Assembly (NCBI GenBank): GCA_027492255.1
Contig: JAPUFB010000004.1
Span: 186,001 to 250,000 of the forward strand
DNA: 64,000 nucleotides
Direction of reading: 5' to 3'
DNA from: Candidatus Saccharimonadota bacterium
GTDB lineage: Bacteria > Patescibacteriota > Saccharimonadia > Saccharimonadales > Saccharimonadaceae
Shown here: positions 58,503 to 60,554 of the stretch, piece by piece
How positions within the stretch are numbered: the stretch's first letter is position 1
How the letters are laid out: each line of letters starts with the position of its first letter
The notes under the pieces: model-generated
Database searches by the model: none
Seen by the model: the letters and a program-made list of their open reading frames with translations, nothing else
What the model was told of the DNA's origin: nothing
Position numbers and translations under genes: made by a program

Positions 58503-58577
58503 GCGGGTATCGTATAACGGCTATTATGCTACCTTCCCAAGGTAGAAATGAGGTTTCGACTACCTCTACCCGCACCA
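58503..58577 (+). tRNA. tRNA-Gly (anticodon CCC), CCA encoded
   Basis: Acceptor GCGGGTA (58503-58509) pairs with TACCCGC (58567-58573), discriminator A, then CCA. Anticodon arm CTACC-TTCCCAA-GGTAG gives CCC, reading GGG. T-arm GAGGT-TTCGACT-ACCTC (58550-58566). A TGC-TACTAT box 7 nt or so upstream of the predicted +1 (58496) may be its promoter. Confidence 0.93.
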
Positions 58578-58614
58578 AATAAATAATCCACATCCGCGTG
58601 GATTATTTATTTGG
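58575..58614 (+). terminator. 17-bp hairpin fused to the tRNA-Gly 3' end
   Basis: CCAAATAAATAATCCAC (58575-58591) pairs perfectly with the segment at 58598-58614 around ATCCGC. Its first three bases are the tRNA CCA. Probably a terminator or processing signal, but no U-run follows the stem. Confidence 0.65.
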
Positions 58615-58798
58615 TATGAGGTAGTCGAAACCTCGAAGTTTTGCGTAGCAAAACAAACGAGAGTTCGTGTAGCGAGCAACGGAAGCGAAAGCTTGCTTTC
58701 GACCCATTGTGAGCGGAAATAGGGAGCTTTAGCGACCGCCCGATCTCTACCCGCCTTTTACTCACGTCCCTTTCGGAGTAGAGGGGGCTTTAACTTTT
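58615..58798 (+). other. Structured intergenic region with an inverted T-arm copy
   Basis: No gene found. 58618-58634 is the exact reverse complement of the tRNA T-arm (58550-58566). Then come small perfect hairpins GTTTTGC-GTA-GCAAAAC and CGAAAGC-TT-GCTTTCG, a second partial acceptor end TCTACCCGC (near 58755), and a CCCT/AGGG hairpin before TTTAACTTTT that may end transcription. It could be a tRNA-associated repeat, a small RNA or the scar of an inserted element. Confidence 0.5.
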
Positions 58799-58852
58799 GT
58801 GATCATACCATCTGCATACGTCATAATACTAGCGCAACTGATGGATTATATG

Positions 58853-58858
58853 TACAAT
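58853..58858 (+). promoter_or_regulatory. Leaderless promoter of the accessory pair
   Basis: TACAAT; +1 falls exactly on the A of the ATG at 58865. Confidence 0.5.
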
Positions 58859-58864
58859 AATGGT

Positions 58865-59140
58865 ATGGCGATAAAGAAAATCTCTAGTGATGACCAGCAG
58901 GGTACGCGAACTGTTGAAATCAGTAATGGCGACTTAGTGGCATTAAATAAAATCATTGATGAATGGGACTTCAAAGACATAGAGAGCGCATTGCGTTATG
59001 CTGTGGCGGTCTTATCTATCGCAAAAGATAAAAAGTTATTCTATGAAAAAGAAGCAGGTGAAAAAGTAACAATAGAGCCAGCAGACAGCCTTAAGCGAGA
59101 AAAAACCGATGACAACGGCCAAGTCGAAAAGTCAGAATGA
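58865..59140 (+). CDS. Unknown 91-residue protein, first gene of a pair
   Basis: Start chosen at 58865 from the leaderless promoter; the frame is open from 58799. EISNGDLVALNKIIDEWDFK and ESALRYAVAVLSIAKDK look like a helical, RHH/antitoxin-like small protein with an acidic tail, but no family is certain. It overlaps the next gene by 32 nt, so the products are probably made together. Confidence 0.62.
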   Translation: MAIKKISSDDQQGTRTVEISNGDLVALNKIIDEWDFKDIESALRYAVAVLSIAKDKKLFYEKEAGEKVTIEPADSLKREKTDDNGQVEKSE

Positions 59141-59486
59141 TTTTAATGCGGGTGACCTGATCAAGGCATCTGCAGATCACGAAAAAACACTTGGTGACCT
59201 AAGTGTTTCAGTTAAGAAGCTTGAAAAGCGTGTTGGTGATAGTGCTTCGTTGGCATCAGCTTTTAAAGATGCCTTCGAGAATGATAAAAATATGGACAAA
59301 GTTCTTGTCGATTTAATCTCTCACCTCATTCAGACGGATGACAGCGTTAAAGCTGCCGTAGAAAAAGCCGTAAACAAGGCAGATCGAAACTGGCAAGTTT
59401 CAATGTTCAAAAAAGCAGGTTTTGCTATCTGGACACTTATTGTGGCTCTCATCTCTGGCGCTATTGTTTTCTTTGTTAAGGGATAA
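59109..59486 (+). CDS. Tail-anchored coiled-coil protein, second gene of a pair
   Basis: 125 residues: hydrophilic N-terminus, heptad-like region (about 25-50: LGDLSVSVKKLEKRVG), helical middle and one C-terminal span (about 103-122: FAIWTLIVALISGAIVFF) ending in VKG. The tail-anchor layout suggests the bulk faces the cytoplasm. Unknown function; it may be the membrane partner of the upstream 91-residue protein. Confidence 0.65.
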   Translation: MTTAKSKSQNDFNAGDLIKASADHEKTLGDLSVSVKKLEKRVGDSASLASAFKDAFENDKNMDKVLVDLISHLIQTDDSVKAAVEKAVNKADRNWQVSMFKKAGFAIWTLIVALISGAIVFFVKG

Positions 59487-59530
59487 TATTTCAAACCTTA
59501 CCCTTAGCGGGTAATCGTTATAGTTGTTTA

Positions 59531-59559
59531 TTGACTATTATAATAAAAAGTGGTAATAT
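59531..59559 (+). promoter_or_regulatory. Promoter of the GC-rich 88-residue gene
   Basis: TTGACT (59531-59536), 17 nt, TAATAT (59554-59559). +1 near 59566. The leader forms TAACTC-ACCC-GAGTTA (59565-59580) before AAGGAG. Confidence 0.68.
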
Positions 59560-59601
59560 ATATCTAACTCACCCGAGTTAGTATCGACATCAAGGAGTGG
59601 T

Positions 59602-59868
59602 ATGCCCAAGAATCTCAGGGAGGTCCGAGTCGCGGATCTCTATGTGCAATGCATGTACCCGAATGTCCCCCACCCGATGGCAGCATCTGATTGCTGCCGC
59701 AACCTGGCGGACACAGCCGTGGAACGTCCTGACGGTGTCAATTCCTGGCGATGCCCCGAACATCGAGGCCTCATCAAGGATGACGTACAGGGACCGGTTC
59801 ACGAGACTGTTCTCCTTCGCAGACCGGCACCTCGTCGAGTTCCCCAGGACGAAGCGGAACAATACTGA
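59602..59868 (+). CDS. GC-rich, Cys-containing 88-residue protein, unknown
   Basis: ATG at 59602 four nt after AAGGAG. YVQCMYPNVPHP, ASDCCRNLAD and SWRCPEHRG give four Cys and a nearby His (C17, C31, C32, C51, H54), which could bind zinc. The C-terminus is Arg/Pro-rich. Codon use is strongly GC-ending, unlike the genes around it. Promoter, leader hairpin, ribosome site and terminator form a complete unit built like the 49-residue gene at 784. Overlapping frames at 59597-59875 and on the minus strand are rejected. Probably transferred; family unknown. Confidence 0.6.
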   Translation: MPKNLREVRVADLYVQCMYPNVPHPMAASDCCRNLADTAVERPDGVNSWRCPEHRGLIKDDVQGPVHETVLLRRPAPRRVPQDEAEQY

Positions 59869-59878
59869 CAGGTGATAC

Positions 59879-59935
59879 GCCCCGAGTCATAACCCCCGAG
59901 CAAAACCGCTCTGCGTTATGACGTGGGGCGATTTT
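59879..59935 (+). terminator. Terminator of the 88-residue gene
   Basis: GCCCC-GA-GTCATAAC (59879-59893) pairs with GTTATGAC-GT-GGGGC (59915-59929), with an inner GAGC/GCTC, followed by GATTTT. Confidence 0.8.
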
Positions 59936-59957
59936 GCTATCTGTCTCGTAGATTTAT

Positions 59958-60554
59958 TTAGCTGAACAACGTTGAACCAAATTTGAGAATAATCGCAGCA
60001 GTTGCGGCAACAAACAGCAAAACAGCAACCAGCACATCAAATCCCTTATCGGCAAAAGCACGAAGCTTCTTCAGTGTAGCGTGACCAAGATAGAGGTTAT
60101 CTTCCAGGATATTATAGCGAAGCAGTGAAAAGAATATGACAATCATTGCCACATCAAGCGTCAAGCACCATGGACAGAGAATTTGAATCACGAAATAACT
60201 TGTATAAAACATCCAAAATGCGAAGAGTGCCCCGAGTGCTGCACCAGCCTGGGCTGCAAACATAAACCATTTCGGGAATTTCGTGCCCCCGAGTGCCGCT
60301 ATAGCGATCGTGATAAGTACTGGCAACGCCAGCATACCTATAAACGCATTTGGAAAGCCGAAGATATGTGCCGTTGGGTCTTTTCCGACCGCCGCGCAGT
60401 TAAGTACAGCATTGAGACTACAGGGCAGCTCAACATTGGCATTTTTCGCAAGCTCGATCGCTTCTGTTGATAAGACAAATGAAGCAATAAGGCCCAAACT
60501 TGAACCGAGCAACAACAGTGTTAACGCCCAAATCTTTTTATCTTTACTGAACAT
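59958..60554 (-). CDS. Vitamin K epoxide reductase (VKOR) family protein
   Basis: 198 residues, five spans. The loop Cys pair (ELPCSLNAVLNCAAV) and the active-site CPWC (QILCPWCLTLD) are intact. Bacterial VKORs reoxidise DsbA-type partners using quinones, so this is the DsbB-like step of disulfide formation in exported proteins. It overlaps the thioredoxin-like gene by 11 nt. Confidence 0.92.
   Translation of the reverse strand: MFSKDKKIWALTLLLLGSSLGLIASFVLSTEAIELAKNANVELPCSLNAVLNCAAVGKDPTAHIFGFPNAFIGMLALPVLITIAIAALGGTKFPKWFMFAAQAGAALGALFAFWMFYTSYFVIQILCPWCLTLDVAMIVIFFSLLRYNILEDNLYLGHATLKKLRAFADKGFDVLVAVLLFVAATAAIILKFGSTLFS

Follow-up and report, generated by a model that had tools for sequence, protein, structure and literature searches.

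A phage moron is a single gene with a promoter and a terminator of its own and an odd base composition. Morons are described as horizontally acquired and independently transcribed (PMC6469090). Here, we describe a locus of comparable layout in a 64,000-nt stretch of DNA, called the window below, which comprises bases 186,001–250,000 of contig 4 in the 854,584-base, six-contig genome of a Candidatus Saccharimonadota bacterium. At its centre is an 88-residue frame that starts at position 59602 (the 59602 gene). The unit shares with morons the single gene, a promoter-like site, a strong terminator hairpin, deviant composition and patchy presence, but the gene has no phage-family match and stands among chromosomal genes: its flanks carry a tRNA-Gly gene, a VKOR-family gene and other genes of chromosomal type, rather than those of a phage or prophage genome.

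Two other kinds of system were compared. Small zinc-binding proteins with C-x2-H knuckles resemble the 59602 protein in that the latter has one such pair (Cys51–His54) following three more cysteines; it differs from them in having only one C-x2-C/H pair, and a CC doublet stands where the second would be. No zinc-binding family profile matched the protein in Pfam, NCBIfam or the PDB sequences. Integron cassettes carry attC sites, and no attC core motif was seen by eye in the hairpin at 59878–59930. The unit appears moron-like in its layout, and we file it neither as a moron nor as a zinc finger. The reading that we favour, with moderate confidence, is that it is probably a lineage-specific, self-contained, single-gene accessory transcription unit, placed next to a conserved VKOR block in an interval of variable content.

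Layout of the unit and its surroundings

The features of the unit and its neighbours, and of a second cassette in the window, are as follows:

58503–58577, tRNA-Gly(CCC) gene, flanking the unit
58799–59140, plus strand, small accessory gene of 113 aa, no family over the cut-off in Pfam or NCBIfam
59109–59486, plus strand, small accessory gene of 125 aa with a hydrophobic C-terminal stretch, one relative
59531–59559, plus strand, promoter-like site: TTGACT (59531–59536), a 17-nt spacer and TAATAT (59554–59559), 9 of 12 matches, second hexamer preceded by TG, within a recurring stretch (59527–59567)
59564–59581, plus strand, leader hairpin CTAACTC/GAGTTAG with a 7-bp stem, directly after the expected transcription start
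59592–59597, plus strand, Shine-Dalgarno sequence AAGGAG, 4 nt 5′ of the ATG at 59602
59602–59868, plus strand, orphan frame of 88 codons (88 aa), marked by its codon-position GC, no family
59878–59930, plus strand, long hairpin followed by a short T run (ATTTT) reaching 59938, between the 59602 gene and the converging VKOR gene
59958–60554, minus strand, VKOR-family gene (Pfam PF07884, E 5.5e-30), bounding the variable interval
784–933, 784 gene, membrane-type, 49 aa, with a hairpin at about 944–995

The preliminary description had listed a promoter-like site, a leader hairpin, AAGGAG, an 88-residue frame with four Cys and a nearby His, and a terminator stem, and each of these lies at the position claimed for it. 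The tRNA gene and the pair of small accessory genes said to stand beside the unit are likewise present. With a promoter-like site, a Shine-Dalgarno sequence and a strong 3′ hairpin around the frame, the picture of a stand-alone gene bounded by signals of its own holds. The leader hairpin was also seen in the terminator scan, on the opposite strand, as a weak terminator-like stem, and the 4-nt spacing between AAGGAG and ATG occurs in 3 of the 44 AAGGAG-led genes of this genome. When the 75 bases after each stop codon were compared, the 3′ hairpin (MFE −33.9, z −5.6) was equalled after 4% of 618 ordinary genes; by its strength, the 59602 gene has an intrinsic terminator of its own, although the T run is short.

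Transcription would start at the gene's own sigma-70-type promoter (59531–59559), giving an mRNA that begins with a small hairpin. Translation from AAGGAG–ATG at 59602 would then yield an 88-residue soluble protein, and transcription would end at the long hairpin (59878–59938), which the converging VKOR gene may share. The product has a mass of 10.1 kDa and a pI of 6.3, as computed from the sequence, with cysteines at residues 17, 31, 32 and 51 and histidines at 24, 54 and 67. Our guess is that it might be held by a metal at a putative site made up of Cys17, Cys31/32, Cys51 and His54. Single-sequence structure prediction returned a pLDDT of 56, and the predicted fold is therefore uninformative about the protein.

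By its score alone, the promoter-like site is at chance level, since four sites of comparable score (9/12) were present in 1.5 kb against 2.8 in shuffled sequence. A search of 274 other family genomes at E below 0.001, however, recovered the DNA at 59527–59567 in four of them, with 83–100% identity over 22–40 nt. By our estimate, chance would account for about 0.3 at that threshold, and the recurrence lends some support to a promoter belonging to the 59602 gene itself. In three of the four genomes (L171, L173 and L174), according to our own reading of the ORFs, the recurring promoter heads a small GC-rich frame, with GC3 values of 0.68, 0.96 and 0.59, respectively. The fourth recurrence (L172) is a 22-base match that lacks the −35 hexamer.

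The frame in genome G137 (L173:1033–1395, minus strand) has 120 codons and a GC3 of 0.96 in a stretch with a GC content of 0.53, behind a promoter like the 59531 site. Genome G036 has two neighbouring small GC-rich frames (L174:1545–1817 and 2117–2362), the first of which stands behind a near copy of the 59531 promoter. The second encodes a Cys-rich product of 81 aa, has a promoter-like site of its own and is preceded by a terminator-like stem; a pattern scan found no viral relative for it. A PNVPH stretch common to this frame (L174:2117–2359) and the 59602 protein, with 7 of 9 residues shared and E 0.05 for that single comparison, was spotted post hoc and discarded as evidence.

The VKOR gene was present in 20 of 40 other genomes. 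We read twelve VKOR loci, including the one in the window, and no 59602 cassette followed VKOR in the 11 others; in these the whole interval differs, so that they offer no clean empty site. In two genomes of the same genus, VKOR is followed by a gene of 384 or 394 aa, with an isoleucyl-tRNA-synthetase-like gene further on; the stretches read there contain no tRNA. Because the VKOR loci of relatives carry other genes here, the content of the interval changes between conserved borders. The 59602 unit would accordingly occupy a place where content turns over between species while the borders are kept, namely the isoleucyl-tRNA-synthetase-like gene on one side and a block of VKOR, thioredoxin-like and ribonucleotide-reductase-like genes on the other. 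VKOR is named from Pfam; the other three border names are our own reading of the genes.

Two observations were made on the neighbours. Of 40 other genomes, one yielded a relative of the 125-aa gene (59109–59486), at 27% identity and E 2.7e-8, and a pattern scan found no viral relative of its protein. The last part of the tRNA-Gly(CCC) gene, GAGGTTTCGACTACCTC (58550–58566), recurs inverted at 58618–58634, with a perfect 18-bp inverted repeat (58574–58591 / 58598–58615) between the two copies; the end of the tRNA gene and the region downstream of it (58550–58634) form one long palindrome.

Coding status, composition and relatives of the 59602 gene

That the 59602 frame is open is weak evidence of a gene, because two further frames, of 92 codons on the plus strand and 90 codons on the minus strand, are open across it. 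The GC content at its three codon positions is 0.73, 0.44 and 0.59 (p 0.0007). Scored with the codon usage of the genome, the ATG frame reached −11.6, compared with −28.7 and −21.3 for the other open frames, a value that falls between the 1st (−14.9) and 5th (−6.4) percentiles of ordinary gene windows. The case for coding rests on the codon-position GC rather than on conservation. Given the Shine-Dalgarno sequence, the uneven codon-position GC and the best codon score of the three frames, we consider the frame quite probably protein-coding.

The three simultaneously open frames would also fit a GC-rich, structured non-coding RNA of ≈370 nt, flanked by a promoter and a terminator of its own, with high GC explaining why the frame is open. 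The full transcript does fold better than its shuffles (z −2.95), but without the terminator the z-score is −1.57 and 6 of 100 shuffles fold equally well. The codon-position GC is uneven in the manner of coding DNA, conservation at the DNA level among the 274 other family genomes is confined to the promoter, and no Rfam family matched (best E 1.5, on the opposite strand). We regard a non-coding RNA as unlikely; with no Rfam match and a fold z-score of only −1.57 outside the terminator, it was rejected as the first choice.

The 59602 gene has a GC content of 0.587, against 0.456 for the genome, and in this it is unlike its neighbours; 1.6% of ordinary 88-codon windows attain such a value. Its GC3 of 0.591 is attained by 3.7% of these windows, and GC3 averages 0.427 across the 644 ORFs of 150 aa or longer (634 once duplicates from overlapping stretches are removed). 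The GC anomaly is therefore moderate: the gene is GC-rich and off the norm, as had been claimed, but its GC3 still lies inside the tail of the normal spread.

The 59602 protein appears to be an orphan as far as our searches reach. No family was found in Pfam, NCBIfam, PHROGs, PADLOC or the PDB sequences (best PHROG E 0.11), and neither the gene nor its two small neighbours gave a PHROG match below E 0.08. Searching 50,697 phage and 72,556 plasmid records by tblastn returned nothing at E up to 1, and no relative was confirmed by pattern scans of viral contigs or by short exact patterns in GTDB contigs. A WhiB-type protein was considered and rejected, the Whib profile having no match in this genome. 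Among 295 genomes of the family, the protein found itself and six weak matches, and among 379 genomes of the phylum, itself and two weak matches (the genus, family and phylum samples have genomes in common). These were read as chance: the weak matches (E 0.001 to 0.09) overlap or oppose other frames, are of low complexity or have stops inside, as judged by eye. Only the gene itself was convincing in either sample, which bears out the expectation that it has no vertical family.

The same searches bear on the origin of the gene. A preference for AAG and CAG above 90% resembles high-GC Actinobacteria, and the high-GC3 genes of this genome show it; the 59602 gene is itself GC-rich. It could then have come from an actinobacterial host, or from a phage of that host, and have kept the codon usage of the donor. 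Phages common to Saccharibacteria and Actinobacteria have been proposed (PMC10746230). The GC3 of the 59602 gene is only 0.59, however, and no convincing relative emerged from the phage and plasmid records, the viral contigs, the short patterns in GTDB contigs or the actinobacterial genomes. No match at E 0.001 was obtained in any of 394 genomes of an actinobacterial class, in a search run without a positive control, and the matches in 5 of 13 further actinobacterial genomes reached only E 0.004–0.09, in frames that look like chance. Since these searches gave no convincing relatives, actinobacterial import, which the preliminary description had suggested, is left without support, and we consider it quite improbable.

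The lack of relatives in any search would also suit a functionless gene, either formed at this site out of GC-rich intergenic DNA or left as the decaying remnant of a longer gene, as would the weak coding score (−11.6) and the GC maximum of the gap, which ranks only 15th of 280 gaps. The tidy promoter, the Shine-Dalgarno sequence and the strong hairpin that surround the frame argue against this origin, which seems to us highly improbable. We infer that the 59602 gene is expressed as mRNA and protein, and that it either was gained recently or has diverged past recognition.

The 784 cassette and the high-GC3 genes of the genome

The unit had been said to repeat the plan of the cassette at position 784, and the same layout was indeed found in both: a promoter-like site, a short leader, a small GC-rich frame and a long GC-rich hairpin. 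The likeness is one of layout. The 784 gene differs in encoding a 49-aa membrane-type peptide with a clear class codon usage, and it is more extreme in GC3 (0.80) and in its hairpin (z about −8), yet its promoter lacks a good −35 and its hairpin a T run. Its class codon score of +16.6 is attained by none of the sampled ordinary 49-codon windows. Among 294 family genomes, the gene gave only weak, unconvincing matches, in three besides its own. The leaders of two small high-GC3 genes, 784 in the window and L033:2875–3102, share CGTACGAGAG shortly 5′ of the start codon.

The two cassettes had been taken to suggest a class of imported or specialised small genes. A class is borne out in this genome: its high-GC3 genes have a distinct codon usage and, as a group, strong 3′ hairpins. 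In all ORFs, AAG makes up 40% of Lys codons and CAG 50% of Gln codons; in the high-GC3 ORFs, the shares are 91% and 93%. Strong 3′ hairpins (z below −3) follow 9 of the 14 ORFs that reach 150 aa and exceed a GC3 of 0.6, against 83 of 618 ordinary genes (p 2e-5). Among small, non-overlapping ORFs with GC3 of at least 0.6, they follow 8/10, 12/23 and 16/48 as the threshold of codon fit is lowered. When the count is restricted to genes with 75 nt or more of free sequence behind them, the difference shrinks (8 of 13 high-GC3 genes against 48 of 185, p 0.01), and part of the hairpin effect is thus due to ordinary genes lying in operons. The 13 small class genes were chosen by eye from rows that showed the hairpin energies, so that the small-gene part of the overall count (19/27) is biased. 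Gene calling followed a longest-ORF rule, under which a gene that crosses the border of a stretch is truncated. One ORF, L042:6397–7098, was left out as a likely non-gene from the class hairpin, codon-class score and leader comparisons, and was retained in the GC3 spread, the gap ranking, the codon windows and the free-space and promoter-score tests.

High expression was considered and rejected as the cause of the high GC3. EF-Tu, EF-G and two atpD-like genes, which we picked by characteristic motifs (only three of the motifs tried matched) and presume to be highly expressed, stay at GC3 0.44–0.46, and the class codon usage is therefore not codon optimisation. Nor was a class-specific promoter detected, with a mean score of 8.07 for 15 class genes and 7.94 for 596 others (p 0.5). 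Two of 20 class proteins passed a Pfam family cut-off (DUF350 and TPM), and 2 of 10 matched PHROGs at E below 0.01, including a ParB-like one. One class protein (L035:4531–4956) has a relative in a single genome other than its own among 198 of the family. In the second family genome read for this purpose (G036, 400 kb), 4 of 293 genes were GC3 outliers, three of them with strong hairpins and one of which we take to be the housekeeping gene smpB; with so few outliers there, the class may be peculiar to the genome described here.

Several high-GC3 genes lie together (L011:12266–14225, L020:181–4692 and L016:12563–16344), in clusters that include VWA-like and isochorismatase-like genes (scores below the cut-off), DUF350 and several small membrane-type proteins. 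These clusters are perhaps remnants of larger imported blocks. High-GC3 genes at L009:860–1858, L025:10001–11215 and L035:13597–15915 include Ser/Pro-rich proteins of secreted or surface type and a TPM-domain protein.

The 59602 gene is at the weak edge of the class. It has the strong 3′ hairpin, but its GC3 of 0.59 is in the normal tail. Its synonymous codon score for the class against the rest is +4.0, which 0.25% of ordinary windows attain and which falls between the 5th (−4.2) and 25th (10.6) percentiles of held-out class windows; because the other open frames score higher (21 and 18), this value reflects composition rather than the codon choice of the frame. Its membership, as proposed, is partly supported, and the search for more units of this kind did yield a genome-wide high-GC3 set with strong 3′ hairpins of its own, of which the 784 gene is a clear member.

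A wider interpretation is that the class consists of scattered, self-contained single-gene units with AAG and CAG above 90%, mostly without a known family and with long hairpins, the 59602 unit being a less extreme member. These might form a pool through which lineage-specific genes for episymbiotic life are exchanged, and their donor-like composition would be kept by frequent turnover. We consider this interpretation decidedly unlikely as it stands. The limited literature consulted contains no description of such a class in this phylum.

Taken alone, the 59602 gene is an ordinary orphan of accessory type; the class to which it points is modest and spread over the genome. In a genome of 0.85 Mb, which has little spare coding capacity, genes of deviant codon usage with terminators of their own mark what the lineage may have gained latest, and the most recently gained genes are where the genes for its way of life should be sought.
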